Notes: generated by a model from the letters alone, not told the origin. A stretch of DNA of 64,000 bases from an uncultured Roseovarius sp. (GCA_947496175.1 CANMBU010000001.1:62001-126000); one strand, 5' to 3'; positions 4,488-28,614 are shown, counted from the first letter of the stretch. Numbers and translations: made by a program.

Positions 4488-4491
4488 GACC

Positions 4492-7223: not shown

Positions 7224-7229
7224 AGCGAC

Positions 7230-7250: not shown

Positions 7251-7268
7251 CTCCACCCGAGGCGCGCC

Positions 7269-7514
7269 ATGGTCAAAGTGAAAATCTGGGGCTCTCTGGC
7301 CGCCTTTACCGAGGATCAGCGCGAGGTTGAGGTTGAGGCCAGCACGCTGCGCGAGTTGCTGGAGGGGCTGGGGCAGAGCTACCCGGGCCTCAAACCGCAA
7401 CTTGACCGCGGCGTGTCCGTCTCAATTGACGGACGCATCTACAATGACAGCTGGTTTCAACCTATTCAGCCCGACAGCGAGGTGGTCCTCTTGGCGCGGT
7501 TGAAGGGGGGTTAG
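7269..7514 (+). CDS. MoaD/ThiS-like sulfur-carrier protein
   Basis: An 81-residue beta-grasp protein ending in Gly-Gly, the tail that MoaD and ThiS use as a thiocarboxylate for sulfur transfer. The family ending LLARLKGG and the small size fit. It lies 45 bases after a molybdenum hydroxylase large subunit, across a strong palindrome. Housekeeping moaD normally sits with moaE, which is absent, so this may be a second copy serving the neighbouring enzyme's cofactor or another thiolation. No MoeB/E1-like partner is visible. Confidence 0.75.
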   Translation: MVKVKIWGSLAAFTEDQREVEVEASTLRELLEGLGQSYPGLKPQLDRGVSVSIDGRIYNDSWFQPIQPDSEVVLLARLKGG

Positions 7515-7649
7515 CCAAAGACAGTTTGTCCTGCTTAGAATAAGCCTGTGCGTTCTGTTGTTTTCCATTGCACTATGGCGGAATACGATCTGGCACCGAA
7601 CAGCCAGCCATTGGACTGGCAGCGCGCTGCAAATCGTAAGGAGGTTCTT

Positions 7650-8759: not shown

Positions 8760-8800
8760 AAAAGCGTCGTTCTCCGCACCCAAAGCTGAAGCGTGTCGCC

Positions 8801-10185: not shown

Positions 10186-11233
10186 GAGCCAACTCCTGCG
10201 CTGCAAATTCCGGCATCACCTTGTCGATGAAAAGCTGCAGGCTGCGCTTTTGCAGGTCCATGTCCGCCCCCATCGAGGCATAGTAGACAAAGGCATCTGC
10301 GCCATGGGCCTGATGCGCCTTGAGCTTTTCGACCACCTGTGCGGGGCTTCCGAACATGAGATTGGTTTCCAGCATTTTGGGATCAACCCGCGCGTTGCCG
10401 TCCAGCTCGCCCAAAGGCACCTGTTCCGGGAACCCGTTCAGCACCTCGCCACGCTGCATCATCAGGTTGCCGAACTGCCCCAACACATGGCGGATGGCAC
10501 CCAGCGCCCCGGCCCGGTCCGCTTCATCCTCGTAAACCGCCGTGTGACGCATGACAGCCCAGGTGCCATTGAATGGCTTACCTGCCTTTTCCACCGCATC
10601 CTTGAGCCGCTTGGCATAGGTTTCCACCTCGCTCATCGGCATGGTAAGCGGCCAGCTGAGGATATTGCACTCGTGTTCAACCGCATAGTCAAAGGTAATT
10701 GGCGCACGCGCGGCCACCCAGACAGGGACATCCGACTGCACCGGTTTGGGGCAGGACGTGGCGCTTGGAAATTGCCAGAATTCGCCGTCATGGGCATAGT
10801 CGCCATCCCACAGCTTTTGCACCACGGGCAGCATTTCCTGCATGTAGCGCCAGCTGTCTTTCTGGTCGAGACCGGGCTTCATCCGGTCGAACTCCCGCTG
10901 GTAAGCCCCTGATCCGATGCCAAATTCCAGACGCCCGTCGCTGAGCAAGTCGAGCATCGCCGCCTCACCGGCCAGGTTGATGGGATGCCAGTAGGCCGCG
11001 TTCACCACGCCCACACCCAGACGGATGTTTTTGGCATGCTCACCCCACCATCCTAGGATCTGAAACGGGTTGGGCGCGATGGTCATCTCCAGCGCGTGAT
11101 GCTCAGCGGCCCAGGCGATTTCAAACCCGGCGGCATCGGCCATTTTGACCATATCCAGCGTATGATCGCGCACCGCTTTCATATCTGTGTCCGGGGTCAT
11201 CCGCTCCAGATTGATGGCAAGATGAAATTTCAT
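10175..11233 (-). CDS. LLM-class flavin-dependent monooxygenase (luciferase-like)
   Basis: A 352-residue bacterial-luciferase-type TIM-barrel enzyme. Family segments include AWAAEHHALEM after strand 2, NIRLGVGVVNAAYWHP and LSDGRLEFGIGSGAYQREF. Such enzymes use reduced flavin and oxygen to hydroxylate, cleave C-N or C-S bonds, or do Baeyer-Villiger chemistry. They need a flavin reductase, and none is visible here. The start at 11233 follows GGGGAGA; the track's start is 14 codons too early. ATGA overlap with the Rieske gene upstream shows coupling. An LLM oxygenase plus an alpha/beta hydrolase recalls RutA/RutD of pyrimidine cleavage, but no other rut gene is present. Confidence 0.87.
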   Translation of the reverse strand: MKFHLAINLERMTPDTDMKAVRDHTLDMVKMADAAGFEIAWAAEHHALEMTIAPNPFQILGWWGEHAKNIRLGVGVVNAAYWHPINLAGEAAMLDLLSDGRLEFGIGSGAYQREFDRMKPGLDQKDSWRYMQEMLPVVQKLWDGDYAHDGEFWQFPSATSCPKPVQSDVPVWVAARAPITFDYAVEHECNILSWPLTMPMSEVETYAKRLKDAVEKAGKPFNGTWAVMRHTAVYEDEADRAGALGAIRHVLGQFGNLMMQRGEVLNGFPEQVPLGELDGNARVDPKMLETNLMFGSPAQVVEKLKAHQAHGADAFVYYASMGADMDLQKRSLQLFIDKVMPEFAAQELAHAG

Positions 11234-12387
11234 GTCTTCTCCCCTTTCGAGTGCAAAAGTGTGTCGGAATACCACGCGGCGAACCGCGCGACATTGGCCT
11301 CTAGAAGTGGTTGGAACCGCCCTTGCGCCGCATCGGGCGAGGCAAGACCGCGTTGTTGGTTTTCCAACGCCGGAATGTCCTCATCAATCGCGGCATCGAG
11401 CCGAATATGGTAGCCGGCAAGAGCCTCATCCGCGCCGGGAAGGTCCAGCGTTTCGCGCGGGAAACACGCGCTTTGAATGACACGGCATTGATTTGGCCCC
11501 AGCGGATAAGCCTCATAGACCCAAAGCGCATCGCGCCCTGCGGCGAATGTCATGTTGGGAAAGACCCACGTGTAGCGTACGCCCTGCGCCGCGCGGCCCG
11601 AAAGTCCCGGCATCGGCGGCAGCGCCTTGTCCTGTTCATCCTGCAAAAGCCCGCCGGTGCCCTCGGTCGGGCCGAACTGCGTGGCAAAGGCCCCCTGCAC
11701 CGGGTCGGGCGCGTCGGGCGGCAGATAGACATCGTCAATCGAGTCTGCATGCACGAATGGCAGGTGGTAATATTCGTTAAAGACCTCCAGAAAGGCCTTC
11801 CAGTTGCAGCCCACGACCATCTCCCGGCGGCGCGTGGTGACAAGGTTCTCCAGTGGCCAGGGCGCATGAACAGCTGCAAATTCAGCAAGTTCTGCGTCTA
11901 AGGGCGGTGCGGCAGGGTTCAGGCAGACGAAAGCAAATCCCAGACGCTCCTCGGTGAGATAGGTTTTGAGACCATAATCAGCCTTATCAAACCCCTCTGC
12001 CGCATCCATCTCAGGCGCCGCGACGAGCCGCCCGTCCAGCCCATAAAACCACGAATGAAACGGGCAACGCAGACCACGACAGGTGCCCTGCCCCTCGACA
12101 AGTCGCGCGCTGCGATGGCGGCAGGTATTGGCAAAGGCGCGCAAGCCGCCATCTGCGTCGCGCAACAGGATGATCGCCTGCCCTGCCAGATCGAGCGCAA
12201 CATAGTCCCCAGGCGCTTTCACCAGATCCGCGCGGCCAACCCCGATCCACCCTTGGCGAAAGAGCTGCTCAACCTCCAGCGCCTCAACGGTCGCATCGGT
12301 ATAGCAGTGTGGCGGGATTGAATACGCCTCTGCCGCAGGCGCACAGCAGGCTTGCAAAGCATGTTGGAGCGTGTCGCCGAGGGCCAT
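11230..12387 (-). CDS. Rieske non-heme iron oxygenase, alpha subunit
   Basis: A 385-residue oxygenase and the second Rieske alpha subunit of the window. Rieske ligands are Cys89-x-His91 and Cys108-x2-His111 (CRHRSARL, CPFHSW). The catalytic iron site is in FNEYYHLPFVH with His208 and His213. It differs strongly from the first Rieske protein, which has LECYHC at this place, so the two probably act on different substrates. No ferredoxin or reductase gene lies in the operon. It begins 3 bases after the aldehyde dehydrogenase stop, and its own stop overlaps the next start. Confidence 0.9.
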   Translation of the reverse strand: MALGDTLQHALQACCAPAAEAYSIPPHCYTDATVEALEVEQLFRQGWIGVGRADLVKAPGDYVALDLAGQAIILLRDADGGLRAFANTCRHRSARLVEGQGTCRGLRCPFHSWFYGLDGRLVAAPEMDAAEGFDKADYGLKTYLTEERLGFAFVCLNPAAPPLDAELAEFAAVHAPWPLENLVTTRRREMVVGCNWKAFLEVFNEYYHLPFVHADSIDDVYLPPDAPDPVQGAFATQFGPTEGTGGLLQDEQDKALPPMPGLSGRAAQGVRYTWVFPNMTFAAGRDALWVYEAYPLGPNQCRVIQSACFPRETLDLPGADEALAGYHIRLDAAIDEDIPALENQQRGLASPDAAQGRFQPLLEANVARFAAWYSDTLLHSKGEKT

Positions 12388-12390
12388 CGC

Positions 12391-13866
12391 TCACCTCATC
12401 TGAAACGGGTTGGCCATAGGTGCATCAGACAGGTTCACCCAGACCATTTTGGGGCGGGTGTAGTCATAGACCGCCTGAAACCCGCTCTCGCGGCCGTAGC
12501 CAGAGCCTTTGACGCCGCCAAACTCGGCAATAGGAGAGATCACGCGATAGGTGTTCACCCAGACAATCCCGGCCCGGACCTTGCGTGCCATGCGCACCGA
12601 GCGCGCGGAATCGCGGGTGAATATCCCCGCCGCCAGGCCGTGCTTGGTCTGGTTGGCCAACGCCAATGCCTCTGCTTCAGTTTTGAACCGCAACACACTG
12701 AGAACCGGACCAAAAAGCTCTGTGTCCACGATGGTCAAATCAGGCGACGGGCAATCAAGAATCGTGGGTTGAAAGAACATGTCGCTTGCCGCATCCGCCC
12801 GCGCGCCACCACAAACCAGACGCGCGCCCTCATCCACAGCGCCTTTGACCTGCGCCTCGATATGCTCAAGCTGCCCGTAGGTGCAAAGCGGGCCCATTTC
12901 GGTTTCTTCCGCCATGGGATCGCCAATGCGAATGCCAGCAGCAATTTCTGACATCTTTTCAAGGAATTGGTCGGCGACATTCTCGTGCACAATAAGGCGG
13001 CTACCCGCCACACAGGATTGCCCGGACGCGCCAAAAATACCCGCCACACTGGCGTTAACAGCACTCTCTATGTTCGCGTCGTCGAACACGATAAAGGGCG
13101 ATTTGCCACCCAGTTCCAGGCTGACTTCTGCAAAGTTTTCCGCAGAGTTGTGAATGACATGCCGCGCGGCCATGGGGCCACCGGTGAAACTCACCCGCGC
13201 CACCAAAGGATGCGATGTGAGGACCTTACCGCAGGGATCGCCATGGCCGGTGAGGATATTGACCACCCCATCAGGAATGCCCGCCTCGGCAATCAGCTTG
13301 CCAAATTCCAGGATCACCGCAGGCGCATGCTCAGACGTCTTCAACACCACGGTGTTGCCCGCCGCCAGAGCCGGGCCGATTTTGACCGCTGTAAGGAAAA
13401 GCTGACTGTTCCAGGGGACAATGGCCGCAATCACGCCCAAGGGTTCACGTTCGGTAAAGGCGAACATGTCGGGCTTGTCGATGGGCAGGGTCTTGCCCTC
13501 GATCTTATCCGCAGCACCGGCATAAAAGTAAAAGAATTCAGCGATATACTTGGCCTGCCAGCGGGTTTCCTTGAACATCTTGCCACTGTCGCGCGTCTCG
13601 ATCTCTCCAAGCGCCTCCGAGCGATCGGCCAGCAAATCTCCCAGCTTACGCAGGCACGCCCCGCGTTGGGTGGCCGTCATGGATGCCCATGGCCCTTCAT
13701 AGCATGCGGCATGCGCCACCTGCACAGCGCGATCCACGTCCTCCGCCGTGGCCTCGGGCACACGCGCCCAAACAGCGCCAGTGGCCGGGTTGAACGTCTC
13801 AAACGTGCCGCCATCGCTGGCCTGCACCCATTCCCCACCGATCAACATGGAATAGCTCTCGACCAT
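12391..13866 (-). CDS. Aldehyde dehydrogenase
   Basis: A 491-residue NAD(P)-dependent aldehyde dehydrogenase, normal length. The general base is Glu251 in LELGGKSP and the nucleophile is Cys285 in SGQSCVAGSR; the oxyanion-region Asn is in PWNSQL. GGGAGGAG precedes the ATG. It is the first gene of a five-gene minus-strand operon ending in the alpha/beta hydrolase and is divergent from a LysR gene. It probably oxidises an aldehyde released in the pathway, which may also be the source of inducer. The segment IVWVNTYR is shared with the betaine-aldehyde and hydroxymuconic-semialdehyde subfamilies, so the subfamily remains open. Confidence 0.92.
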   Translation of the reverse strand: MVESYSMLIGGEWVQASDGGTFETFNPATGAVWARVPEATAEDVDRAVQVAHAACYEGPWASMTATQRGACLRKLGDLLADRSEALGEIETRDSGKMFKETRWQAKYIAEFFYFYAGAADKIEGKTLPIDKPDMFAFTEREPLGVIAAIVPWNSQLFLTAVKIGPALAAGNTVVLKTSEHAPAVILEFGKLIAEAGIPDGVVNILTGHGDPCGKVLTSHPLVARVSFTGGPMAARHVIHNSAENFAEVSLELGGKSPFIVFDDANIESAVNASVAGIFGASGQSCVAGSRLIVHENVADQFLEKMSEIAAGIRIGDPMAEETEMGPLCTYGQLEHIEAQVKGAVDEGARLVCGGARADAASDMFFQPTILDCPSPDLTIVDTELFGPVLSVLRFKTEAEALALANQTKHGLAAGIFTRDSARSVRMARKVRAGIVWVNTYRVISPIAEFGGVKGSGYGRESGFQAVYDYTRPKMVWVNLSDAPMANPFQMR

Positions 13867-14002
13867 CGTATCCTCCTCCCAAAGGCTGTAACGAGGGTCG
13901 ATCCCCTCAGCACAGCCAGTCTGGCATGGATTTACAATTCTTGAAATCGAATTGTTTTGCAGATTAAGTTCGGATTATTCGAATTATTGACTGAGCCACT
14001 TT
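13867..14002. promoter_or_regulatory. Divergent promoter with LysR-type dyad ACAATTC-N8-GAATTGT
   Basis: 136 bases between aldehyde dehydrogenase and LysR starts. A perfect 7-bp inverted repeat lies at 13934-13955. A second imperfect one, TTCG-N7-CGAA, lies closer to the LysR gene. A paired recognition and activation site is the usual LysR arrangement, so these are the likely operators for the five-gene operon. Confidence 0.5.
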
Positions 14003-14848
14003 ATGAACCTTGCCGCCGTCCAAACCTTTCTGTCCATCGTCGACACCGGAAGCCTCGTGCGGGCCTCACAAGAGCTGAACGTCACGCAATCAACCGTCAC
14101 AGCCCGGCTCAAGACGTTGGAAGACGCGTTGGGCCAGCAGCTTCTCAACCGGCAGAAATCCGGCACGACCCTGACCCCTGCGGGCGCGAAATTCCTGCGC
14201 TATGCGCGCACCATGACCGGGCTGTGGCGGCAGGCGAAATATGAAACCGCCCTGCCCGCGGGCCTCGCCTCGGTCTGCACCTTTGGCTGTGACCGCGAGC
14301 TGTGGCACGGGCCGGGACGGGCGTTTTTCAACGGCGTGGTGGGCGGGCGCGATGACATGGCCGTGGCGGTGCGCCAGGGCAGTGCGACGGAACTCGAAAG
14401 CTGGTTGGCCGAAGGGATGGTGGACGTGATCCTGACCTATGATCAGGTGGCGCGCGGGTCGCAGACGGTGCATCCGCTTCCTCCTGAAGAGCTGGTGCTC
14501 TACTCCGACCGGCCTGACACGCCAATCGACAACGATCCGCTTTACATCTTCGTCGATCACGGTGCGGAGTATCGCCAGCAGCATGATGAATTTTACCACC
14601 ATGCCGGGGTGGCACGGATCAGCTTTGACAGCTCCTGGTGGGCGTTGCAGCACATGCTGGAACATGGCGGGTCTGCCTATCTCCCGCGCGCTTTGGCTGC
14701 GCCCTATGTCGGTCAAATGCGTTTGCATCTACCAGCGGAGGCGCCGGTGTTTTACCGCAAGAAAAGCCTGATTGTGCGGGATACGGCGGCGCGCAACTGG
14801 ATATGGTTTGCGCCACTGGTAGAGGCCTTGTCCGCGCCTGTGGCCTAA
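14003..14848 (+). CDS. LysR-family transcriptional regulator
   Basis: A 281-residue LysR regulator. The helix-turn-helix (about 2-60) contains LVRASQELNVTQSTVTARL; the effector domain follows. It is transcribed divergently from the five-gene oxygenase operon across a 136-base region holding a perfect dyad, so it is very likely that operon's regulator. Its effector domain differs clearly from those of the other two LysR proteins in the window. The ATG at 14003 gives the standard short LysR N-terminus. Downstream, glpK begins 68 bases later on the same strand, but a shared transcript is not evident. Confidence 0.9.
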   Translation: MNLAAVQTFLSIVDTGSLVRASQELNVTQSTVTARLKTLEDALGQQLLNRQKSGTTLTPAGAKFLRYARTMTGLWRQAKYETALPAGLASVCTFGCDRELWHGPGRAFFNGVVGGRDDMAVAVRQGSATELESWLAEGMVDVILTYDQVARGSQTVHPLPPEELVLYSDRPDTPIDNDPLYIFVDHGAEYRQQHDEFYHHAGVARISFDSSWWALQHMLEHGGSAYLPRALAAPYVGQMRLHLPAEAPVFYRKKSLIVRDTAARNWIWFAPLVEALSAPVA

Positions 14849-16404: not shown

Positions 16405-16461
16405 CCGCAAAACAGTTCAGCCTGACTTGAATTTTGCTTCTAATTTTCAGATAAAGTGAAA

Positions 16462-17343
16462 ATGGCAATCAAAATTGACATGCTTCGCTGTTTTCTAACT
16501 GTGGCTGACCGCGGCAACCTGAGTGATGCGGCCAAAGAGCTTGGGCGAACGCCCTCTGCGGTGTCGATGATGTTGCAACAACTGGAAGATCACATCGGCG
16601 CGCCGCTGTTCAAACCGGGGCGCAAGTCGCACCTGACCCGGCTGGGCGATTTGGTGCGCATTGAAGCCAAACGAGAGCTCAATCATTTCGACCGCACTGT
16701 GGCTGCGATTGAGGGCCTGTCGCGCGCCGAGGCGGGTCATGTGCGATTGGCTGTGACGCCCTCTGTGGCCAAAGTTTTGATGCCGCATGTCCTGCGCAGC
16801 TTTGCCAATCACCATCCGGATGTGCGCATCGACATGCGCGACATTGACAGCGCCAGCATCGGCCACGAGCTTCAGGCTGGGCGCGTCGATATTGCGCTGG
16901 CCAGCCTGCGCCCACTGCCACGGTTTGAACGACACTTGCTGTTCTCTGACCGGTTTGGTGTCATCTGTCCCGCAGATCATCCTTTGACAAAAAACTGGGA
17001 CGATCTGGGTTGGTCCGACCTTCGGGACACGCCATTCATTGCCAATGATCTGGGGCAATTGATCCCTGATCCAGAATTTCGCCGCATTCAGGATAGCGCC
17101 ACGCTACATGTCCGAAACACAGCTTCGATCCTGAGCCTTGTGCGCGCAGGCATGGGCGTGACCGTCTTGCCGGAATTGGCCGCGTTTGATGCCGGGGATG
17201 ATCTGGCATTCTTGCCGCTATCGGACAAAACACTCCGGCGCGAGATTTGGATGCTGACACCGCAGGATCAGGATATGTCCCCTGCCGCTGTGGCTTTGGC
17301 AGAGGTTATTCGCAATCAGAACATTCGCCTTGCGCATGACTGA
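16462..17343 (+). CDS. LysR-family transcriptional regulator
   Basis: A 293-residue LysR regulator with an N-terminal helix-turn-helix (about 4-62; NLSDAAKELGRTPSAVSMML) and an effector-binding domain. I take the ATG at 16462; a GTG two codons earlier (the track's choice) is equally possible and no ribosome-binding site decides. It precedes the aldehyde dehydrogenase/M19/proline-racemase cluster in the same direction, separated by 97 bases that hold a perfect dyad. It probably controls that cluster and may respond to its amino-acid-like substrate. Confidence 0.88.
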   Translation: MAIKIDMLRCFLTVADRGNLSDAAKELGRTPSAVSMMLQQLEDHIGAPLFKPGRKSHLTRLGDLVRIEAKRELNHFDRTVAAIEGLSRAEAGHVRLAVTPSVAKVLMPHVLRSFANHHPDVRIDMRDIDSASIGHELQAGRVDIALASLRPLPRFERHLLFSDRFGVICPADHPLTKNWDDLGWSDLRDTPFIANDLGQLIPDPEFRRIQDSATLHVRNTASILSLVRAGMGVTVLPELAAFDAGDDLAFLPLSDKTLRREIWMLTPQDQDMSPAAVALAEVIRNQNIRLAHD

Positions 17344-17356
17344 ATACAGAAAACCT

Positions 17357-17376
17357 GAAATTATCTAAACAATTTC
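17357..17376. promoter_or_regulatory. Candidate LysR operator GAAATT-N8-AATTTC
   Basis: A perfect 6-bp inverted repeat in the 97-base gap between the LysR gene and the aldehyde dehydrogenase. It has the same arm-spacer-arm plan (8-base spacer) as the dyad at 13934-13955. It lies about 65 bases upstream of the gene start, a usual position for a LysR site. Confidence 0.45.
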
Positions 17377-17440
17377 TCGTTTGCCTTAATTCACAGGATA
17401 AGAAAAAAGTGAAACTCCACCATTCACGGGATGACATCAC

Positions 17441-18892
17441 ATGGCTGAGCCGAAACAGAACTATATTGCAGGCGAATGGGTCAGTGGCCCGTCTGAAGTC
17501 GAAAACCGCAATCCTTCTGATCTGAGCGACGTGATCGGCCACTTTACGCAGGCCAGCCGCGCGCAGTTGAATGATGCGATTGCCGCCGCCAAGGAGGCGC
17601 AAATCACCTGGGCCAGCTATGGGCTGGAGCGCAAACAGGCCGTGTTGCATGCCATCGGTTCCGAGATGATGGCGCGGGCCGAAGAACTGGGCACGCTTTT
17701 GAGCCGCGAGGAAGGCAAGCCTTTGGCCGAGGGCAAAGGCGAGGTTTATCGCGCGGGGCAGTTTTTTACCTATTACGCACATGAAGTGCTGCGCCAGTTG
17801 GGCGAGAATGCCGACTCGGTGCGTCCCGATATTGAGATTGACGTGCGCCGCGAGCCGGTGGGCACCGTGGCGATCATCAGCCCCTGGAATTTCCCAACAG
17901 CCACAGCGAGTTGGAAGATTGCTCCGGCTCTGGCCTATGGCAATGCGGTGATCTGGAAGCCGGCCAATATCACGCCGGCCTCGGCTGTAGCCCTGACCGA
18001 GATTATTGCCAAGCAGGACATCCCGCCTGGCCTCTTTCAGCTTGTGATGGGCGCGGGCGGCGAGATTGGTCAGGCACTGATTGAAAGCCCTGACATTCAG
18101 GCGATTTCCTTTACCGGCTCCGTGCCAGTAGGCCGCCAGATTGCGTCGACAGCAGCAGCGAATTTCACTCGGCTCCAGCTTGAGATGGGCTCCAAGAATG
18201 CACTGGCCGTGATGGAGGACGCCGAACTTGATCTGGCGGTCACTCTGGCATTGGGCGGCGCATTTGGCGGCACCGGACAAAAGTGCACGGCCTCCTCGCG
18301 CCTTGTGGTGCATGAGGGCATCCACGACGCGTTTGTCGAGAAACTCGTGGCCGGGGCCAAGGCGATGAAAGTCGGCCATGCGCTGGAAGAAGGCACACAA
18401 ATGGGGCCGGTGGTTTCCGAACAGCAACTGAATGAGAACCTGGCCTATGTTGATCTGGGCAAATCCGAAGGGGCAGAACTGGCCTGCGGCGGGGCACGGC
18501 TGGAGATGCCGCATGAGGGCTATTACATGTCCCCCGGTGTTTTCCTGAACAGCACCAACGACATGCGCATCAACCGCGAAGAGATGTTCGCGCCGCTCAC
18601 CGCAGTGATCAAAGTCTCGGGCTATGACGAGGCGCTCAGCGTTGTGAATGACACGAATTTCGGCCTGACCTCAGGAATTGTCACGACATCCCTCGCCCGC
18701 GCCAACCACTTCCGCCGCAACGCACAAACCGGTGTGGTCACAGTGAACCTGCCCACCGCCGGCACGGATTATCACGTGCAGTTCGGCGGGCGCGGCGACA
18801 GCTCTTATGGCCCGCGCGAACAGGGCATTCATGCGCGCGAATTCTATACGGTGGTCAAGACTGCCTATATTTCCTCCGGGGTGCCAAAATGA
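17441..18892 (+). CDS. Aldehyde dehydrogenase (possible 2-oxoglutarate-semialdehyde type)
   Basis: A 483-residue aldehyde dehydrogenase. The catalytic Cys is about residue 282 (GGTGQKCTASSR) and the general base Glu is in LQLEMGSKNA; PWNFPTATASWKIAPALAYGN is the cofactor region. The GQKCTAxSR form and the length fit 2-oxoglutarate (or succinate) semialdehyde dehydrogenases, which end the bacterial hydroxyproline and pentose-acid pathways. A proline-racemase homologue in the same operon makes that reading attractive. The stop overlaps the M19-like start (ATGA), so the two are coupled. Substrate assignment is inference. Confidence 0.88.
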   Translation: MAEPKQNYIAGEWVSGPSEVENRNPSDLSDVIGHFTQASRAQLNDAIAAAKEAQITWASYGLERKQAVLHAIGSEMMARAEELGTLLSREEGKPLAEGKGEVYRAGQFFTYYAHEVLRQLGENADSVRPDIEIDVRREPVGTVAIISPWNFPTATASWKIAPALAYGNAVIWKPANITPASAVALTEIIAKQDIPPGLFQLVMGAGGEIGQALIESPDIQAISFTGSVPVGRQIASTAAANFTRLQLEMGSKNALAVMEDAELDLAVTLALGGAFGGTGQKCTASSRLVVHEGIHDAFVEKLVAGAKAMKVGHALEEGTQMGPVVSEQQLNENLAYVDLGKSEGAELACGGARLEMPHEGYYMSPGVFLNSTNDMRINREEMFAPLTAVIKVSGYDEALSVVNDTNFGLTSGIVTTSLARANHFRRNAQTGVVTVNLPTAGTDYHVQFGGRGDSSYGPREQGIHAREFYTVVKTAYISSGVPK

Positions 18893-19872
18893 CTTATCGC
18901 ATCGACTGCCTTCAATATTGCAACTGGTCGGAAGACATCTTTCGCCAGATGCGCGAGGGCGGGCTTGATGCGGTGCATGTCACCATCTCCTATCATGAGA
19001 ATTTCCGCGAAACGGTTCTGAATGTTGAGCAATGGAACCGGTGGTTTGAAACCTATCCAGACCTCATCATGAAAGGCCGCTGGGCCAGTGATGTGAAACT
19101 GGCCCGTGACACCGGGCGCACGGCAATTTTCTTTGGCTTTCAGAACCCCTCGCCGATTGAGGATGACATCGGCCTCGTTGAGGTCTGGCATGATCTTGGC
19201 GCACGGTTCATGCAGTTGACCTATAACAACCAATCATTGCTGGCGACGGGCTGTTACGAAGAAGAAGACCCCGGGCTGACGCGCATGGGGCGTCAGGTGA
19301 TCCGAGAGATGAACCGCGTAGGGCTCGTCGTGGACATGTCGCATTCCGCCGACCGCTCAACCATTGAGGCGGCGGACCATTCCGAGCGACCTATTGCAAT
19401 CACTCATGCCAACCCGTTTGACTGGCATGCCGCGCGGCGCAACAAACCCGATGACGTGATCCGTGCTGTGGTGCAAAATGGCGGGATGATGGGCTTTTCG
19501 ATTTATCCGCATCACCTGGCAGGCGGCAGTGATTGCACGCTCAAAGGGTTTTGCCAGATGATTGCCGACACGGCAGAACGCTATGGCGTCACGCATTTCG
19601 GCATCGGCTCGGACCTTTGCCAGGGCCAACCAGATAGCGTGGTGGAATGGATGCGCGTGGGGCGCTGGACCAAGGAAATCGACTATGGAGAAGGCTCTGC
19701 CTCCAATCCGGGCTTTCCAAAGCAACCCTACTGGTTCCACACAAACGCAGACTTTCCACGCCTCGAAGATGGCCTGAAAGAGGTGGGCTTTAACGCGCGG
19801 GAAATTGCGGACATTATGGGCGATAACTGGTTCCGCTTTTTTGAGAAAAACTTTGTGGCATCAGATGGTTGA
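18889..19872 (+). CDS. Peptidase M19 (membrane dipeptidase) family protein with altered metal site
   Basis: A 327-residue M19-fold protein. Landmarks in order: VVDMSHSADRS (His152), ITHANP (His173) and FGIGSDLCQG (Asp242), matching three metal or substrate ligands of renal dipeptidase. The N-terminal HxD pair is absent (the strand reads IDCLQYCNW), and the bridging Glu is replaced, with GFQNP (Gln85) at its position. A normal two-zinc dipeptidase site therefore cannot form as in the classical enzyme. There is no signal peptide, so it should be cytoplasmic. It is coupled to the aldehyde dehydrogenase upstream and overlaps the next gene by 8 bases. It may hydrolyse or rearrange a cyclic or N-linked imino-acid compound. 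Confidence 0.82.
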   Translation: MTYRIDCLQYCNWSEDIFRQMREGGLDAVHVTISYHENFRETVLNVEQWNRWFETYPDLIMKGRWASDVKLARDTGRTAIFFGFQNPSPIEDDIGLVEVWHDLGARFMQLTYNNQSLLATGCYEEEDPGLTRMGRQVIREMNRVGLVVDMSHSADRSTIEAADHSERPIAITHANPFDWHAARRNKPDDVIRAVVQNGGMMGFSIYPHHLAGGSDCTLKGFCQMIADTAERYGVTHFGIGSDLCQGQPDSVVEWMRVGRWTKEIDYGEGSASNPGFPKQPYWFHTNADFPRLEDGLKEVGFNAREIADIMGDNWFRFFEKNFVASDG

Positions 19873-21544
19873 AGCGATCCCACCCCGCGACCCCAATGAG
19901 GTCATGACCCTGGCCCGACTCGGCTCGGCACATCAATGTCGGCTGAGCTTTATGCGGCAATTGTTGCGGCGGCTGAGCCGTGAGGCGTGGGAATTTGACG
20001 TCCCTGTCTTCAACATTGACGCCAATGGCGTGGGCCACGCGGTCTACACGGCCAAGGGGCCGGACCGCAGCTATTCTTTGGTGGCTTTTGCCCATGATCT
20101 GCCCCCCGAACAGCGCTCTGACCGGGTGATTGCGACCGCTTGGGATGCCACGTTCACTCTGTTTGACGGCGTACCAACGCAAGATGATATCACGCGGCTG
20201 TCGCAGAACGTGCCCTTGCAAGAGGCCGGGCGCGTCAGTGATCGCGAGTTGAGTCTGTCGCGTGCCAACCGGTCTGTACGGTTGTGGGATCATGTGGTTG
20301 AGGCGCTGGCGTCAGGGCAACAGCCGGATGAGACCAAAGTGGGCGATGTCGGCTATTTGATGCGCACCACCGCTGTGTACGGTTCGGGCAAGTTCGGCGC
20401 GGCGGACCGTGAGCAGACACGCCACCGTCCGGAATGTGCTGGACCCTTTCAGATCGAGATGCTTTCGGTGTTTCTGACCCGCGCTTTCGTGATGGATCTC
20501 GTCGAGCATATGGCGCGTATGAAAGCGCCAGATAGGGCTGTGCCGCTGGACCCTGCCCTGCGGCGGCGGTTCGGCATTGGCAATTCCACCGGGCTCGGCA
20601 TGGCGCCGTTTCTGGTCACACACCCCGCCTTGCTCAATGCGTGGATTGCGGCGCGCGAAGAGGCGCTGTCACGGGTGCGGTCCCTGCCCGAGGCCAAAGA
20701 GACAGACGTTCAGGCCTTTCGTCGGTTTGTTGCGCGCGCCAAAATTCATGCGGATGCATGGACGTCAGAACATTCGCTTCAAATCAATAAGTTAACCGCA
20801 TTGCGCGCGGATATGACGGCGCTACAGGCGCATGTGCAAGCGGCTGATCTGACCTTGGATCTGCCCTGGAACCGGCTTTGGATCTGGGCACAGGAGGCGC
20901 TGTCCATTGAAGGTCAGGAACAGCTGGCCGCGCTTCTGTTGGAACCCTACGGTGACCTTGTTGACGGACTGACCGAGTGCATGTCCACCGACGAGCATAT
21001 GACCTTTCCGATTGATGGGACGATGTCGGTCGAGGCGCTTCAAGCCATCCTTGAGGATGTCTATGGCTGGGCGCTGGATACTGACTGGGACACGCCCGAA
21101 AGCCACGCGCGTGTCTGGTATGTCTCCGAGGCCAAGTTGGAGCCGCGCCTTGGCGAACGGTTTGAAGAGCCGATTGAGCCCTATGAACAGCCCTTGGGCC
21201 CCGGGCGGGATGCCGCGCGGCTCTATGCGGCGCTGAAGCAGACCGACGAGACCACCGTGGCGGCCCTTCTTCTGGCCCATCCCGAGCATCGGCATGTGGC
21301 TCGCCGGGCGCAAATCGCAGCACGCCTGCCCTATGCCGAAATCCGCGACAACACATTGAGTGCTGAGATGCTGCCCATCGACATGCTGCGCCTCAAGCTT
21401 AGCTTTTTCGGGGCCTGTCATTTCGACCCGCGCTCGGACCGCTGGCTCAGGATCAACATGTACCAGCACGCGCCCTTCCCCCACGAACTGGCGCAGACAA
21501 GCGACGACTGGACCTTGCCGCCTTTGCCCATTGCAGCGCAATGA
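19865..21544 (+). CDS. Unrecognised 559-residue protein of the racemase cluster
   Basis: I do not recognise this family. It is a soluble-looking protein of 559 residues with no signal peptide, no membrane segment and no nucleotide-binding loop that I can see. It begins near MTLARLGSAHQCRLSFMRQL, has a middle block FGIGNSTGLGMAPFLVTHP that is probably functional, and a C-terminal part rich in Asp, Trp and Tyr. I use the ATG at 19865, which overlaps the M19-like stop by 8 bases; the track's start lies inside that gene. The next gene starts 3 bases before its stop ends, so it is firmly part of the operon and presumably a pathway enzyme or scaffold working with the DUF3726-like protein. Confidence 0.8.
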   Translation: MVEAIPPRDPNEVMTLARLGSAHQCRLSFMRQLLRRLSREAWEFDVPVFNIDANGVGHAVYTAKGPDRSYSLVAFAHDLPPEQRSDRVIATAWDATFTLFDGVPTQDDITRLSQNVPLQEAGRVSDRELSLSRANRSVRLWDHVVEALASGQQPDETKVGDVGYLMRTTAVYGSGKFGAADREQTRHRPECAGPFQIEMLSVFLTRAFVMDLVEHMARMKAPDRAVPLDPALRRRFGIGNSTGLGMAPFLVTHPALLNAWIAAREEALSRVRSLPEAKETDVQAFRRFVARAKIHADAWTSEHSLQINKLTALRADMTALQAHVQAADLTLDLPWNRLWIWAQEALSIEGQEQLAALLLEPYGDLVDGLTECMSTDEHMTFPIDGTMSVEALQAILEDVYGWALDTDWDTPESHARVWYVSEAKLEPRLGERFEEPIEPYEQPLGPGRDAARLYAALKQTDETTVAALLLAHPEHRHVARRAQIAARLPYAEIRDNTLSAEMLPIDMLRLKLSFFGACHFDPRSDRWLRINMYQHAPFPHELAQTSDDWTLPPLPIAAQ

Positions 21545-22206
21545 CCTGGTCTCTTAACGAGGTGGAAAACCTGTCGCGCAAAGCAGCGCGAGGCGCAGGA
21601 TATAGCTGGGGGCTGGCAGAAGAGGCAGGCAAGGCCACACGCTGGACCTCTGCCGCAGGATGGCCGAGCGCTGCAGCGCTGGCCCAGCTTTTGACGCAGA
21701 CCGATGGCATTGCCCCATCCGAGTTGGGACCTGCTTCACTTTCAGGAACCTGGACGGCCAAAAGTGGCGCGCTCTGCCCAATTACGACCGGCGCCGTGTT
21801 GTGTGATCTTGCTGCCAATTGGGCCAACGGCACCACCGCCTCTCTTGGCTCTGTCCGGCAGCCCATGCTCATCATTCCCTACGTGGTTTGGGCCGCTGAT
21901 CAGACTGGTGCGGCTCTTTCGGTAAGTTGGGAGGGTTTGACGCTCACCCGCGCGGGCGGAGAGACCTATCTCGACGATCCCAATATCGCGCGCCAGGTGT
22001 TCAAGGCGAACTGGGTGCGCCTTTCACCAGCGAGCATTCCGGCGGTCAAACCAACACTGGGCGCGCGTTTGACCCGCTGCTACCGCGCGGACATGTCAGC
22101 AGAAACGACCGCCACCCTGACGGCCTTTGCCCAGCGCACCTATGCGCCGGAAACCGAAGAAAGCAGGCTCGGTGGCGCGGGCGCCGGCCTGACCGACAAT
22201 GACTGA
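21541..22206 (+). CDS. DUF3726-like protein
   Basis: A 221-residue protein whose start, WSLNEVENLSRKAARGAGYSW, is the one I associate with DUF3726. No reaction is known to me for this family. It contains no signal peptide or clear membrane helix. It overlaps the unknown 559-residue protein (ATGA) and is followed after 12 bases by the proline-racemase homologue. Coupling to both suggests that the two unknown proteins work as a pair, for example as subunits of one enzyme. Confidence 0.72.
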   Translation: MTWSLNEVENLSRKAARGAGYSWGLAEEAGKATRWTSAAGWPSAAALAQLLTQTDGIAPSELGPASLSGTWTAKSGALCPITTGAVLCDLAANWANGTTASLGSVRQPMLIIPYVVWAADQTGAALSVSWEGLTLTRAGGETYLDDPNIARQVFKANWVRLSPASIPAVKPTLGARLTRCYRADMSAETTATLTAFAQRTYAPETEESRLGGAGAGLTDND

Positions 22207-22218
22207 GCGAGGGGACAT

Positions 22219-23274
22219 ATGCGCACATCTCGTATGATCACCGCTGTTGAGGCCCATGCCGAGGGCGAACCGGGGCGTGTCATCACCGCTGGTGCGCCGC
22301 CCCTTGAGGGAGAGACAGTGTTTGCGCAGATGCAATACATGCAAAAGCATGTAGATGATCTTCGCAAGCTCATGCTGCGCGAGCCGCGTGGGCAACCCGC
22401 ACTCTGCGCCAATCTCATCGTGCCGCCTTGTCACCCCGAGGCCGATGCCGGGTTCATCATCATGGAGCAGACCGAATATCCGCCCATGTCCGGCTCAAAC
22501 ACGATTTGCGTGGTCACAGTGCTCTTGGAAACCGGCATGCTTCCGATGGTCGAGCCTGTGACTGAGCTAACCCTCGAAGCGCCAGCAGGGTTGATCCGCG
22601 TCAGAGCGGACTGCGCAGATGGCAAAGTCACGCGTGTCACGTTCAGGAACGTCCCGGCCTTTGCCATACATCTTGATGCGCCGCTGGAGGTCGAGAGGCT
22701 GGGGCGGATCACAGTTGATATCGGTTGGGGCGGGATGTTTTACGTTATGGCTGATGCCGATGCGCTTGGGGTATCGCTGGAGGCAGAGAACGGCGCGCAG
22801 ATTGTGCAAACCTCCGAGCGCATATTGGCCGCCGCACGTGCGCAGTTGCCGGTGACACACCCCGAAAACCCCGACATCACCGGCCCCACGATCAGCCAGC
22901 TTTACGGTGCGCCCACTGACCCCGGCACAGATGGGAAGAACGCCGTCACCGTGTCCACCGGCGGGTTTGATCCGAAGCGGCCTCATGCGCTGCCCGGAAC
23001 GCTGGATCGGTCGCCTTGCGGGACGGGCACCTGCGCACGCATGGCCGTTCTGCACAAACGCGGGTTGCTTGAGCCAGGACAGGACTATGTGCATGCCGGG
23101 CCATTGAGCACGACCTTTGCAGGGCGGATCGAGGAAGTCACAGACGTGGCCGGATATGAGGCCATCGTGCCGACACTCTCCGGCCAGGGGTGGATCTATG
23201 GCATGTCGAACTACACGCTTGATCCGACCGATCCGTTTCAGGAAGGCTTCACAATCGGGGATATCTGGGCCTAA
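22219..23274 (+). CDS. Proline racemase family protein with Ser/Cys catalytic pair
   Basis: A 351-residue member of the proline racemase fold. The first catalytic position, Cys in proline racemase (MCGHG), is Ser91 here in MSGSNTIC; the second is Cys267 in DRSPCGTGTCA. Cys/Cys enzymes are racemases or epimerases and Cys/Thr enzymes are trans-3-hydroxyproline dehydratases. Ser/Cys members were, as I recall, linked to 4-hydroxyproline 2-epimerisation. Length is normal. It is the last gene of the LysR-controlled operon and stops 10 bases from the convergent riboflavin synthase gene. An epimerase for a hydroxyproline-like imino acid is the leading reading. Confidence 0.85.
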   Translation: MRTSRMITAVEAHAEGEPGRVITAGAPPLEGETVFAQMQYMQKHVDDLRKLMLREPRGQPALCANLIVPPCHPEADAGFIIMEQTEYPPMSGSNTICVVTVLLETGMLPMVEPVTELTLEAPAGLIRVRADCADGKVTRVTFRNVPAFAIHLDAPLEVERLGRITVDIGWGGMFYVMADADALGVSLEAENGAQIVQTSERILAAARAQLPVTHPENPDITGPTISQLYGAPTDPGTDGKNAVTVSTGGFDPKRPHALPGTLDRSPCGTGTCARMAVLHKRGLLEPGQDYVHAGPLSTTFAGRIEEVTDVAGYEAIVPTLSGQGWIYGMSNYTLDPTDPFQEGFTIGDIWA

Positions 23275-23872: not shown

Positions 23873-24037
23873 CGCATGTCTCCCAACTTGCCCCTTTGCA
23901 CCTAAAGCGCGGGAACTGGCATGACAAGACATGTTGACAGGCAACCGTCCATGGATTCAGCCTTAATTTTGCCTTAATCCTGCTGTAATAATGACAAAAA
24001 AGAGCAGCGTGTGAAGCGTGACAAGAGGCGAGTGTTT

Positions 24038-25330
24038 ATGAGTGTGCCCTCTGTAGGCCAACGAACCTTCCTGTTTTTACAGGGTCCGCATGGGCCCTTT
24101 TTTGCGCGTTTGGGCGATATGCTCAAACGAACCGGCGCGTCGGTGTGGCGCGTGGGGTTCAACGCGGGCGATGCGCTCTTCTGGCGCGACAAGGACAGCT
24201 ACATCGCTTTCAATGGCACGCAGACCGACTGGCGCCCCACGTTCCGGAACCTGGTGGCAGAAAAAGGTGTGACCGACATTGTCATTTACGGTGACACGCG
24301 CCCCATCCATGCCCACGCCGTGCAAGAGGCCAAGGCGCTTGGTCTGGCTGTGCATGTCTTTGAAGAAGGGTACATGCGCCCCTATTGGGTGACTTATGAG
24401 CGCGACGGCTCGAACGGGCATTCACGGCTGATGCATATGAGCGTGGACGATATGCGCACCGCCCTGAAAAATTCAGATATGGACAGCGCCCTGCCCCCGG
24501 CCTCCTGGGGCGATATGCGCCAGCACGTGTTTTATGGCGCTGTTTATCACGGTGCCGTTTTGCTTTTGAACGGAAACTACCGCAATTTCCGCCCCCATCG
24601 CGCGTTGAGCGTCGGGCAGGAGTTCAAGCTCTATCTCAAACGTCTGTTGCTGATGCCAGCGCAGGCGATGGAACGCCGTATCGCCACATCGCGCATTCGA
24701 CATGGTGGGTTCCCCTATCACCTGGCGCTGTTGCAGCTGGAGCATGACGCGTCGTTCCAGATGCATTCGCCCTTTACGACGATGACCGATTTTCTGGAAA
24801 CGGTGACCGAAAGCTTTGCCGAGGGTGCGCCGCAGCATCACCATCTCGTGGTCAAGGCGCATCCTCTGGAAGACGGGCGTGCACCGATCCAGCCAGAGCT
24901 TAAGAGGCTGGCAAAAAAGTATAATATCGAGGATCGCGTGCATTATGTGCGTGGCGGCAAGCTGGCGCAGCTCCTGGATGAAGCGCGCAGCGCCGTGACG
25001 GTTAATTCCACGGCCGCCCAACAGGTTCTGTGGCGCGGTATTCCACTTAAAACCTTTGGTCAGGCGGTCTATGCCAAGCCGGAATTCACCTCGACCAAAC
25101 CCTTGCGCGACTTCTTTGCCGGAGCTGAGCGGCCGGATCGCAAAGCCTATGCCGATTACCGGCGTTATCTGCTGGAAACCAGCCAGGTTGCGGGCGGGTT
25201 TTACTCCGCGCGCGGACGCCGGCAGCTTTTGCGCCAAACCGTCGATATGATGCTAAGCCCCGATGATCCCTACGATGCGCTGGTCTCGGGCACCGCGGCA
25301 CCCCGGCAACAGTTTTATGTCGTAAAATAG
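24038..25330 (+). CDS. kpsS: Capsule polysaccharide Kdo transferase, KpsS-like
   Basis: A 430-residue protein of the KpsS/LipB family, which adds the first beta-Kdo to the lysophosphatidylglycerol anchor of group-2-type capsules on the inner face of the cytoplasmic membrane. It carries the family features FLFLQGPHGPFFARLGDML, VHVFEEGYMRPYWVTYE and DRVHYVRGGKLAQLLDEA. I use the ATG at 24038 because a purine-rich AGAGGCGAG lies upstream; the track starts nine codons earlier at a GTG. It is followed by a polysaccharide exporter and KpsC. No KpsMT/E transport genes are in view, so they must lie elsewhere. Confidence 0.85.
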   Translation: MSVPSVGQRTFLFLQGPHGPFFARLGDMLKRTGASVWRVGFNAGDALFWRDKDSYIAFNGTQTDWRPTFRNLVAEKGVTDIVIYGDTRPIHAHAVQEAKALGLAVHVFEEGYMRPYWVTYERDGSNGHSRLMHMSVDDMRTALKNSDMDSALPPASWGDMRQHVFYGAVYHGAVLLLNGNYRNFRPHRALSVGQEFKLYLKRLLLMPAQAMERRIATSRIRHGGFPYHLALLQLEHDASFQMHSPFTTMTDFLETVTESFAEGAPQHHHLVVKAHPLEDGRAPIQPELKRLAKKYNIEDRVHYVRGGKLAQLLDEARSAVTVNSTAAQQVLWRGIPLKTFGQAVYAKPEFTSTKPLRDFFAGAERPDRKAYADYRRYLLETSQVAGGFYSARGRRQLLRQTVDMMLSPDDPYDALVSGTAAPRQQFYVVK

Positions 25331-25426
25331 CCGACGGCGCGGCACAGGCTGGATTTTTTCAAAAGACCCCACTACCTTAGGCCAAAATACTGAGGCAGTA
25401 ATAAAACAGGTCGAGGAGACCGGGCA

Positions 25427-26575
25427 GTGAAAATCCAATCCAAACGATGGGCGAAGTCCGTCGCCATTGTGCTTGTGGCAAGTACTGTGGCGTCTTGTAG
25501 TTTTCTGCCCCGCTCTGGCCCAAACAAGAGCGAAATCTTTGCAGGCTCGGTGCAGCAATCCGGCGACGCCTTTGTTGTCAGCGTGAATGACCGGGTGACG
25601 CGGGCCACCGCTGTGCAGCCGACACTGGGCTTTTCGGATGAATTCAAGAATGCGGGTCTTGTCGGTTCTGACACAATTCGCCCTGGCGATACGCTGGGTC
25701 TGACGATCTGGGAAAATGTCGATGACGGTCTTCTGGCCGGAGAAGGCGTCAACCAGACGATCCTGCAAGAGGTACAAGTGGATGGCGCGGGCTTTATCTT
25801 TGTACCTTATGCCGGACGCATTCGCGCAGCGGGCAACACGCCTGAGGCCATTCGCCGTGTGATCACCTCAAAACTTGATGAGCAAACGCCCGATCCTCAG
25901 GTCGAAGTGCGTCGTCTTGCCGGTGACGGGGCCTCTGTGTCGCTGATTGGTGCGGTCGGTGGTCAGGGGGTCTATCCGATCGAGCGCCCCACACGGACCT
26001 TGTCGACAATGCTGGCCAATGCCGGTGGCGTGACAATTCAGCCTGAAATTGCGCAAGTCACTGTTATTCGGGGCAATATGCGCTCCAAAGTGTGGTTCCA
26101 GGATCTGTTCAACCACCCCGAATTCGACATCGCCCTGCGCGATGGCGACCGCATTCTTGTCGAAGAAGACACCCGCGCCTTTACCGCTTTGGGGGCCACA
26201 GGAGGTCAGGCGCGCCTGCCCTTCCCGTCTCCTACCATTTCCGCCGTGGAAGCGCTGGCTCAGGTGGGTGGTCTGAACACCAACACGGCTGATCCCACCG
26301 GTGTCTTCGTGATGCGCAACGAACCTGCCGAGATTGCCAATCAGGTGCTGGGCCGGACCGATCTCATCGGCGCGCAGCGTGTGGTCTATGTGCTTGATCT
26401 GACGCAGCCCAACGGGCTTTTCATGGCGCGTGACTTTGCCATTCGCGACGAGGACACGCTTTACGTGACAGAAGCGCCATTCACCCAATGGAGCAAGGTG
26501 ATCAGCGCATTGACAGGCACATTGGGCGCTGTGGGGTCTGTCTCGACCGCAGGCGATACGCTTAGCGGCAACTGA
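25427..26575 (+). CDS. Outer-membrane polysaccharide export lipoprotein, Wza/KpsD-like
   Basis: A 382-residue lipoprotein. The signal peptide ends in the lipobox STVASC, so Cys24 would be lipidated. It has the Poly_export domain (GDTLGLTIWENV) followed by SLBB-type beta-grasp domains (SLIGAVGGQGVYPIERPTRTL; ALGATGGQARLPFP). Such proteins form the outer-membrane channel for capsule or exopolysaccharide. The start is a GTG at 25427 preceded by GAGGAG. It sits between KpsS- and KpsC-like genes and overlaps kpsC by one base (TGATG). Confidence 0.88.
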   Translation: MKIQSKRWAKSVAIVLVASTVASCSFLPRSGPNKSEIFAGSVQQSGDAFVVSVNDRVTRATAVQPTLGFSDEFKNAGLVGSDTIRPGDTLGLTIWENVDDGLLAGEGVNQTILQEVQVDGAGFIFVPYAGRIRAAGNTPEAIRRVITSKLDEQTPDPQVEVRRLAGDGASVSLIGAVGGQGVYPIERPTRTLSTMLANAGGVTIQPEIAQVTVIRGNMRSKVWFQDLFNHPEFDIALRDGDRILVEEDTRAFTALGATGGQARLPFPSPTISAVEALAQVGGLNTNTADPTGVFVMRNEPAEIANQVLGRTDLIGAQRVVYVLDLTQPNGLFMARDFAIRDEDTLYVTEAPFTQWSKVISALTGTLGAVGSVSTAGDTLSGN

Positions 26576-28614
26576 TGCCACAACCCGACGTCCAAGACCC
26601 CGCCCAAGACGCAAGACCTGGGCGGGTTGTCTATTTTAACGCAGGTTTTCTGCGCCAAAAGCAAATTCGCCGGATCATGGAACTGGCTGGGCTTTCCTTG
26701 CAACTTGGCAAACCCGGACCAGAGGACAGGATTGCTGTTTGGGGTCGCTCTCCGTATGCCCGGCGCGGTGAGGCCGTGGCCGAAGCCACCGGCGCTGCGC
26801 TGATCCGGGTGGAAGACGCGTTTTTGCGATCCTTGCACCCCGGCCGCGACGGCGAGCCGCCACTGGGCCTCAACATCGACCATACCGGCGTGCATTTTGA
26901 CTGTTCGGGGCCTTCCGACCTGGAAACCCTGCTGGCCACCCATCCTCTGGATGACACCGCGCTTATGAACCGCGCACGCGCCGCCATTGCTCGGCTGCAA
27001 GAAGCACATCTGACAAAATACAGCGGCTTTGCGCTGGATACCCCTGCACCTGAACCAGGTTATGTGCTTGTGATCGACCAGACCCATGGCGATGCCTCGG
27101 TTGCGCATGGCAGGGCAGATGCAAATTCATTCCGTGAAATGCTGTTTTGCGCGCAAGAAGATCATCCAGGCGCGCGCATCCTGATCAAGACCCATCCCGA
27201 AACGCTGGCAGGTCATCGTCCGGGTTACTTTAGCACAGAGGATGAGACGGACCGGATTTCGCTTTTCGCAGACCCGATCAGTCCCTGGACGCTCTTTGAA
27301 GGAGCGATTGGCGTCTACACGGTGTCCTCGCAACTGGGATTTGAGGCAATCTATGCCGACCACAAACCGCGCGTGTTTGGGCAACCTTTTTATGCAGGCT
27401 GGGGGCTAACGGAAGATCGGCATCCTCTGGAACTGGCCCGGCGCGGTCGAAACCTGAGCAAGGCACAACTCTTTGCCGCCGCGATGATCCTCTATCCGGT
27501 TTGGTACGATCCTTACCGGGACCGTCTGTGCGAGTTGGAAGATGTGCTTGCAACGTTGGAAGCCCGAACCAGAGCTTGGCGTGAGGACCATAAGGGGTGG
27601 ATCGCGACGGGTATGCGACTGTGGAAACGCAAGCCGTTGCAGCATATTTTCGGATCACAAAAGAGCATTATCTTTCAAAATGATGCAGAGCGCGCTTCAC
27701 GCAAAGCTCTTGCCACAGGTCGCGCCCATATGGTCTGGGCCAGTCAGGCGGTCGCGACCCCAGAGGCCATCTGCGTAGAGGACGGGTTTCTGCGCTCACG
27801 CGGGTTAGGCGCGGAACTTGTCCCTGCCTTGTCGTTGGTTTGCGATGATCTGGGCATCTACTACGATCCCTCCAGCGAAAGCCGCTTGGAACGCTGGATT
27901 GCCAAGCGCGCAGAGCTGCGCCCGGATCAGGACCGACGCGCAGAACGTCTGATCGCGCGTATCTGCGAAGGGGGCTTGAGCAAATACAATCTCTCTGGCG
28001 ATGCGCCGGACCTGCCTGAAGGACACCGCATTCTGGTGCCCGGCCAGGTCGAAGATGACGCGTCGATCCTCAAGGGGGCCGGTGACATCAACACCAATCT
28101 TGCGCTGCTGCAAAAGGTACGTGCCGACAATCCTGATGCCGTCTTGCTCTACAAACCTCATCCAGATGTCGAGGCGGGGCTGCGGGATGGGCAGGTGCCG
28201 CAAACCTCACTTGATGCGCTTGGAGCCGTTGTTTTGCCCAAAACCGGTCCGGACGCGGTTCTGAAAGAGGTTCAGGAGGTCTGGACCATGACGTCGCTTA
28301 TGGGATTTGAGGCGTTGCTCAGAGGAGTCGCGGTCACGACCACCGGTGCACCCTTCTACGCCGGTTGGGGGCTGACGAATGATCTGGGGGAGGTCCCTGC
28401 CCGCCGAAGCGCGCGTCCCAATCTGCATGGGCTCGTGCATGCGGCTCTCATCGACTATCCGCGCTACTTTGATCCGGTCACGGATCAGGCCTGCCCGGTT
28501 GAGATTGTGCTGGATCGGCTCGCCAAGGGCGATATCCCGAATCCCGGCCCTGCCAACCGGCTTTTGTCAAAGCTGCAAGGTGTGTTTGCGACCTATGCGG
28601 GGCTGTGGCGCTGA
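26575..28614 (+). CDS. kpsC: Capsule polysaccharide Kdo transferase, KpsC-like (two-module)
   Basis: A 679-residue protein made of two homologous glycosyltransferase modules (about 15-330 and 355-650). Each has the doublet ED.FLRS near its start and FYAGWGLT near its end (QPFYAGWGLTED, APFYAGWGLTND), showing an internal duplication. KpsC extends the poly-Kdo linker of capsules started by KpsS, at the cytoplasmic membrane. Length matches E. coli KpsC. It is last in the three-gene capsule operon and stops 10 bases from a convergent gene. Confidence 0.9.
   Translation: MPQPDVQDPAQDARPGRVVYFNAGFLRQKQIRRIMELAGLSLQLGKPGPEDRIAVWGRSPYARRGEAVAEATGAALIRVEDAFLRSLHPGRDGEPPLGLNIDHTGVHFDCSGPSDLETLLATHPLDDTALMNRARAAIARLQEAHLTKYSGFALDTPAPEPGYVLVIDQTHGDASVAHGRADANSFREMLFCAQEDHPGARILIKTHPETLAGHRPGYFSTEDETDRISLFADPISPWTLFEGAIGVYTVSSQLGFEAIYADHKPRVFGQPFYAGWGLTEDRHPLELARRGRNLSKAQLFAAAMILYPVWYDPYRDRLCELEDVLATLEARTRAWREDHKGWIATGMRLWKRKPLQHIFGSQKSIIFQNDAERASRKALATGRAHMVWASQAVATPEAICVEDGFLRSRGLGAELVPALSLVCDDLGIYYDPSSESRLERWIAKRAELRPDQDRRAERLIARICEGGLSKYNLSGDAPDLPEGHRILVPGQVEDDASILKGAGDINTNLALLQKVRADNPDAVLLYKPHPDVEAGLRDGQVPQTSLDALGAVVLPKTGPDAVLKEVQEVWTMTSLMGFEALLRGVAVTTTGAPFYAGWGLTNDLGEVPARRSARPNLHGLVHAALIDYPRYFDPVTDQACPVEIVLDRLAKGDIPNPGPANRLLSKLQGVFATYAGLWR

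Follow-up and report, generated by a model that had tools for sequence, protein, structure and literature searches.

The operon found behind a LysR-type regulator gene in the 64,000-nucleotide stretch of uncultured Roseovarius sp. DNA analyzed here (GCA_947496175.1, CANMBU010000001.1:62001-126000; henceforth the window) is, on a modest balance of probability, the form taken in this strain by a broadly distributed LysR-regulated operon that uses an N-methylated zwitterionic osmolyte, of the sort produced by marine algae, as a source of carbon and nitrogen. That the substrate is a zwitterion of the N-methyl or betaine type is very probable, and for its identity we lean, if not strongly, toward homarine (N-methylpicolinate). 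The homarine operon of a 2026 study is reportedly named homABCDER and composed of five genes and a regulator, a count that we take to equal that of the LysR gene plus the aldehyde dehydrogenase (ALDH), M19, X559, DUF3726, and Ldh genes described here; a literature search on the name homABCDER found nothing. The choice of homarine combines this gene count with the reported participation of N-methylglutamate dehydrogenase (Mgd) in homarine catabolism (PMC13390433) and the rapid drawdown of homarine by R. pomeroyi (PMC12817926). We infer that the operon probably corresponds to the hom pathway of the homarine study cited in PMC13390433 (Ferrer-Gonzalez et al. 2026, Nat Microbiol 11:1531-1546, doi 10.1038/s41564-026-02313-7), and that the window copy is probably a variant form of a pathway whose outline is already in print.

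As would be expected of a hom operon, the operon family is conserved in marine Alpha- and Gammaproteobacteria and is linked there to a regulator and to uptake of zwitterions. The two systems would have in common environmental or marine bacterial hosts, an N-methylated zwitterion as the substrate, Mgd acting downstream (PMC13390433), and, reportedly, an operon of several genes with a regulator. The window copy differs from the homarine system, to which it is likened by description, in that a racemase replaces the reductase of the Ldh_2 family and no transporter gene is adjacent.

The ORF list and the sequence bear out every gene, overlap, and coordinate of the LysR gene and the five tightly packed plus-strand genes that the initial annotation had listed (Table 1). 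The ALDH and M19-like genes overlap by 4 bases, the M19-like and X559 genes by 8, and the X559 and DUF3726 genes by 4, with a gap of 12 bases between the DUF3726 and racemase genes; neither a transporter gene nor an Ldh_2 gene lies beside the window operon. The ALDH retains both its active-site motif GQKCT (279-283) and the motif EMGSK, and its closest NCBIfam models are those of 2,5-dioxovalerate and 2-oxoglutarate-semialdehyde dehydrogenases, with scores far below the respective cut-offs. Directly 3' of the operon are genes for capsule polysaccharide synthesis and export (24011-28614), a neighborhood kept in several Roseovarius loci.

Table 1. Genes and candidate regulatory elements of the operon, in window coordinates
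Feature	Position	Strand	Description
Perfect dyad ATTTTCA-N7-TGAAAAT	16443-16463		Across the LysR start; contains TTCA-N7-TGAA
LysR-type regulator	Start GTG 16456 or ATG 16462, end 17343	+	Pfam PF00126 and PF03466
Putative LysR box TACAGAAAACCTGAA	17345-17359		One mismatch to TTCA-N7-TGAA; begins 96 bases 5' of the ALDH start
Aldehyde dehydrogenase (ALDH)	17441-18892	+	Pfam Aldedh
M19-like protein	18889-19872	+	Pfam PF01244 (Peptidase_M19)
X559 (559-aa protein)	19865-21544	+	Conserved, without a Pfam domain
DUF3726 protein	21541-22206	+	Pfam PF12525
Proline-racemase-superfamily protein	22219-23274	+	Pfam Pro_racemase

The conserved operon is LysR-ALDH-M19-X559-DUF3726, an order that recurs more than by chance in Rhodobacterales, some Rhizobiales, and Gammaproteobacteria. 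Within 6 kb of X559 in 80 named loci there are DUF3726 genes in 78, M19 in 77, ALDH in 66, and LysR in 62, and a racemase gene in just 2; in the window's genus the racemase is part of the operon in 8 of 60 genomes. The co-occurrence across Rhodobacterales and Rhizobiales that the initial annotation had put forward as a check thus holds for four of its five genes and fails for the racemase, and its reading of a LysR-controlled catabolic operon is supported. Counting matches with E up to 1e-100 as presence, X559 occurs in 174 of the 397 Rhodobacteraceae genomes surveyed (~44%; 138 of 290 genera). It is found in 50/60 genomes of the window's genus (Roseovarius), in 52/54 genomes of one genus that contains Ruegeria, and in 29 of 399 genomes sampled phylum-wide. 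In Phaeobacter inhibens DSM 17395, a tractable marine laboratory strain, the operon is represented by the genes PGA1_RS19000-RS19015. In three genomes of the window's genus the X559 matches are fragmented or carry an in-frame stop and are possibly decaying copies. Rhodobacteraceae are one of the main marine consumers of algal products, and since nearly half of those sampled carry the core operon, its substrate matters to marine carbon and nitrogen flow.

The regulatory signal is conserved along with the genes. In 60 of 82 homologous operons an exact TTCA-N7-TGAA lies at -87 to -143 of the ALDH start, where mononucleotide shuffles predict 0.2 such cases; the count overstates independence because these operons are related. 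Among 70 refined boxes from the 80 loci, 59 precede ALDH, LysR, or LysR together with ALDH or RidA, and 5 are intragenic. The window version, TACAGAAAACCTGAA, is a candidate LysR box backed by its position at the expected distance from ALDH; sites with one mismatch number 9 in the 64 kb against 6.4 expected, so that a single such site is not significant alone. The perfect dyad that the initial annotation had pointed out is present over the LysR start, where its inner part reads TTCAGATAAAGTGAA (16446-16460), and as its core is the same as that of the box kept 5' of ALDH in relatives, it is a candidate autoregulatory LysR box. A further window dyad 5' of ALDH, GAAATT-N8-AATTTC with 6-bp arms, was rejected as a conserved element, being kept in the nearest relative only; the conserved element is TTCA-N7-TGAA. 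In a search of 12 whole genomes for the LysR box, background matches were too numerous for defining a regulon. The conserved box and the transporter links together make the substrate directly testable.

Genes for betaine transporters lie within 6 kb in 41 of the 80 named loci (37 of the BCCT type and 4 of the ProV type), and as genomes carry about one or two BCCT genes each (61-genome sample), the chance of such adjacency is roughly 1%. Loci with the BCCT gene embedded in the operon come from Alpha-, Beta-, and Gammaproteobacteria, and one type separates M19 from X559 in Roseovarius, Pseudovibrio, Phaeobacter, and gamma- and betaproteobacterial loci. In Shinella and Aminobacter, ProU-type glycine-betaine ABC transporter genes directly follow DUF3726 and Ldh, and the Shinella cluster is also flanked by purU and a sarcosine oxidase operon; in several genomes soxBDAG with a GbdR-like regulator, or RidA, adjoins the LysR gene of the operon. 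The betaine transporters, RidA, and sarcosine-oxidase/GbdR-type genes indicate a quaternary or N-methylated zwitterion. An Ldh_2 gene, of which genomes carry about one, follows DUF3726 in 35 of the 80 loci, and its product has as its top PDB relative 1wtj, a Delta1-piperideine-2-carboxylate reductase (198 bits against 138 for the next). Enzymes of this DpkA family also use methylamine and keto acids to form N-methyl amino acids. An N-methylated zwitterion processed via an imine fits the transporters, the sarcosine oxidase genes, and the DpkA-like Ldh_2 alike, and the initial proposal of a probably cyclic, N-substituted substrate finds support here.

The triad of X559, DUF3726, and the M19-like protein stays together even where the other partners change. 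Sequence searches for X559 recovered no relative among Pfam, NCBIfam, PHROG, or PDB profiles. Its predicted structure is confident (pLDDT 87, pTM 0.90), and a fold search against the PDB and a viral library returned nothing under E 0.01, with TM-scores near 0.1; the modeled fold may thus be called new in the sense of being unmatched among solved structures. For the DUF3726 protein the model (pLDDT 91.6) has as its top 25 Foldseek matches in the PDB exclusively Ldh_2 enzymes (probability up to 1.00, E 2.7e-4 at best, TM-score on the query at most 0.57), pointing to a short Ldh_2-type fold. It shares this predicted fold with the family of DpkA, YiaK, and ureidoglycolate dehydrogenase, a full-length member of which is the gene that may follow it, but it is about 220 aa long and has no detectable sequence similarity to them: no Ldh_2 match was obtained by sequence in Pfam or the PDB, and the relation is visible in the fold alone. 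The initial annotation's description of two proteins of unknown function is supported, although DUF3726, with a model matching the Ldh_2 fold, is not entirely novel in kind.

The M19-like protein is altered as had been noted, with HxD absent and the Glu ligand replaced by Gln. It scores 237 bits to PF01244 (cut-off 26) and keeps two His, the Arg, and the Asp of the M19 site, and the loss of HxD and the Glu-to-Gln change are seen in 18/18 aligned family members. An ordinary M19 dipeptidase was ruled out because the binuclear zinc ligands, HxD and the bridging Glu, are gone in all 18. Its top PDB relative is 2i5g (amidohydrolase, E 8.5e-59), which we take to be PA5396 of P. aeruginosa, with which it aligns end to end and shares the motif GFQN; literature searches on DUF3726 and PA5396 found no papers. 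In Vibrio natriegens and P. aeruginosa, dgcAB has a predicted dipeptidase gene in front of it (PMC12093977), and the pepD-hp-dgcAB-fixAB cluster of Pseudomonas and Vibrio likewise places a degenerate M19-like protein beside N-methyl catabolism genes. However, the window operon lacks DgcAB and electron-transfer flavoprotein genes, and the published description of that cluster (PMC12093977) does not include X559 or DUF3726. X559 with its unmatched fold, DUF3726 with its hidden reductase fold, and the M19 protein as a metal-less dipeptidase relative appear to carry out undescribed chemistry.

Taking these observations together, we propose that the substrate might be imported via a BCCT- or ProU-type transporter, which in the window strain would be encoded elsewhere, and that the triad of X559, DUF3726, and the M19-like protein would then carry out an oxygenase-free opening of the N-methylpyridinium ring. 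The ALDH, of the 2-oxoglutarate-semialdehyde type, would oxidize the resulting open-chain N-methyl-enamine or imine aldehyde, and the DpkA-like Ldh_2, where present, would reduce the imine to N-methylglutamate. In Roseovarius, the Ser/Cys racemase might epimerize an alpha-carbon at the imine-reduction stage. Mgd- or sarcosine-oxidase-type flavoenzymes would finally oxidize N-methylglutamate to glutamate. The ring-opening role suggested for X559 and the order of the steps are extrapolated from the chemistry of the enzyme families. More tentatively, and with less confidence than in the substrate itself, we entertain the possibility that X559, DUF3726, and the metal-poor M19 constitute a new oxygen-free ring-opening machinery for N-methylpyridinium-type zwitterions, formed of a fold not seen before and a shortened subunit of reductase fold, with the rhizobial IclR/ABC sister systems taking another substrate and Roseovarius having swapped the final reductase for a racemase.

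The X559 tree (FastTree, 134 sequences, midpoint root) sets apart a distant group comprising rhizobia, Bosea, and Alloyangia; there, X559 precedes genes for a different short protein, for M19, and for a four-gene ABC transporter, and the regulator is usually of the IclR type. A profile comparison of DUF3726 with its positional counterpart in a locus of the rhizobial group gave no significant match. This distant IclR-type system is related and probably acts on another substrate, and its regulator and different transporter suggest that the X559/M19 machinery is probably not substrate-specific. In six loci of this type there are also RidA and, in places, GabT/GabD genes. The rest of the tree contains alphaproteobacterial operons as well as operons from Beta- and Gammaproteobacteria that have LysR, ALDH, and BCCT. 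Nested inside this operon-bearing group is a clade with M19-X559-DUF3726 only, which suggests a loss of partners; the 13 triad-only loci have no operon ALDH, LysR, or betaine transporter and lie among unrelated neighbors.

The initial annotation had read the operon as a pathway for a proline or hydroxyproline derivative; on this reading the racemase would act first, with the two unknown proteins standing in for the usual oxidase and deaminase. This reading, inferred from the racemase, the sole gene outside the conserved operon, is mostly wrong, most relatives having a DpkA-like Ldh_2 at that place or nothing. The catalytic pair of the racemase, Ser91/Cys267 (SGSN at 91, DRSPCGTG at 263), does speak for it, being that of the characterized two-base 4-hydroxyproline epimerase B9JQV3 (PDB 4LB0), which also has the SGSN motif, whereas Ser/Thr marks the dehydratases (PMC4113996). 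A role as an alpha-carbon epimerase is on this ground likelier than dehydration. Nevertheless, the window racemase is also close to the Ser/Thr dehydratases in sequence, and it clears no NCBIfam equivalog cut-off (best 369.9 bits to trans-3-hydroxyproline dehydratase, cut-off 550; 252.3 to 4HypE, cut-off 376). Also in favor of the proline reading, 8 of the 11 full-length close orthologs in the window's genus (69-100% identity, the window's own included) lie within 1.9 kb 3' of X559, with the other three elsewhere; the link of racemase to X559 is real but confined to part of one genus group. With so few of the named loci containing it, the racemase cannot define the substrate. Moreover, hydroxyproline catabolic genes are absent from the window operon by Pfam and do not recur around X559 in the named loci, and the recurring transporters are of the betaine type; we therefore set the proline pathway aside as the main reading and consider it very improbable. 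The racemase and Ldh_2 never occur together in the 80 named loci and both come after DUF3726, and the racemase is thus a Roseovarius-group add-on at the slot that Ldh_2 fills elsewhere.

A better candidate, though still a rather unlikely one, is another betaine or N-methyl amino acid (proline betaine or N-methylproline, trigonelline, or a carnitine-like compound) handled by the same logic of import, triad, semialdehyde, and imine. The links to BCCT, ProU, sarcosine oxidase, and GbdR are general to betaines, DpkA-type reductases such as 1wtj take cyclic imines of proline or pipecolate size, and a racemase would suit an imino acid. Against it, known genes for proline-betaine demethylase or trigonelline oxygenase do not recur beside the operon, and the near-universal presence of X559 in the Ruegeria-containing genus suggests a substrate that is very common at sea. 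Homarine has its own difficulties in the missing adjacent transporter and Ldh_2 gene of the window operon, in the derived triad-only clade without betaine-linked neighbors, and in the distant group where X559 and M19 are accompanied by IclR and another kind of ABC transporter. The triad-only clade could also be taken to mean that M19, X559, and DUF3726 serve in housekeeping or metabolite repair of an endogenous N-heterocycle and were recruited into catabolic operons in some lineages, since one Rhodobacteraceae clade keeps them alone beside unrelated genes. However, this clade is nested, LysR, ALDH, and BCCT are already part of the beta- and gammaproteobacterial copies, partner loss is simpler, and presence in under half of the genomes is unlike housekeeping; we accordingly rate this the least probable of the readings.

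Several further features accompany the operon in Roseovarius and in the window. Nine loci, in several Roseovarius operons, have a DUF2189-type membrane protein of about 290-316 aa encoded 3' of DUF3726, and where it co-occurs with the racemase its gene lies between DUF3726 and the racemase. On the minus strand of the window, 15 kb from the operon, is a soxB-D-A-G-type set (38435-43539; sarcosine oxidase or possibly N-methylglutamate dehydrogenase), which carries one of the three SoxA-like copies of the genome and is adjoined by a glutamate dehydrogenase gene (43654-45087). The region 1383-14848 resembles another ring-degradation cluster, with two Rieske oxygenase genes (1383-2570 and 11233-12387), a molybdopterin hydroxylase subunit (4971-7220), a luciferase-like monooxygenase, an AA_synth protein, an alpha/beta hydrolase, a second ALDH, and a second LysR.
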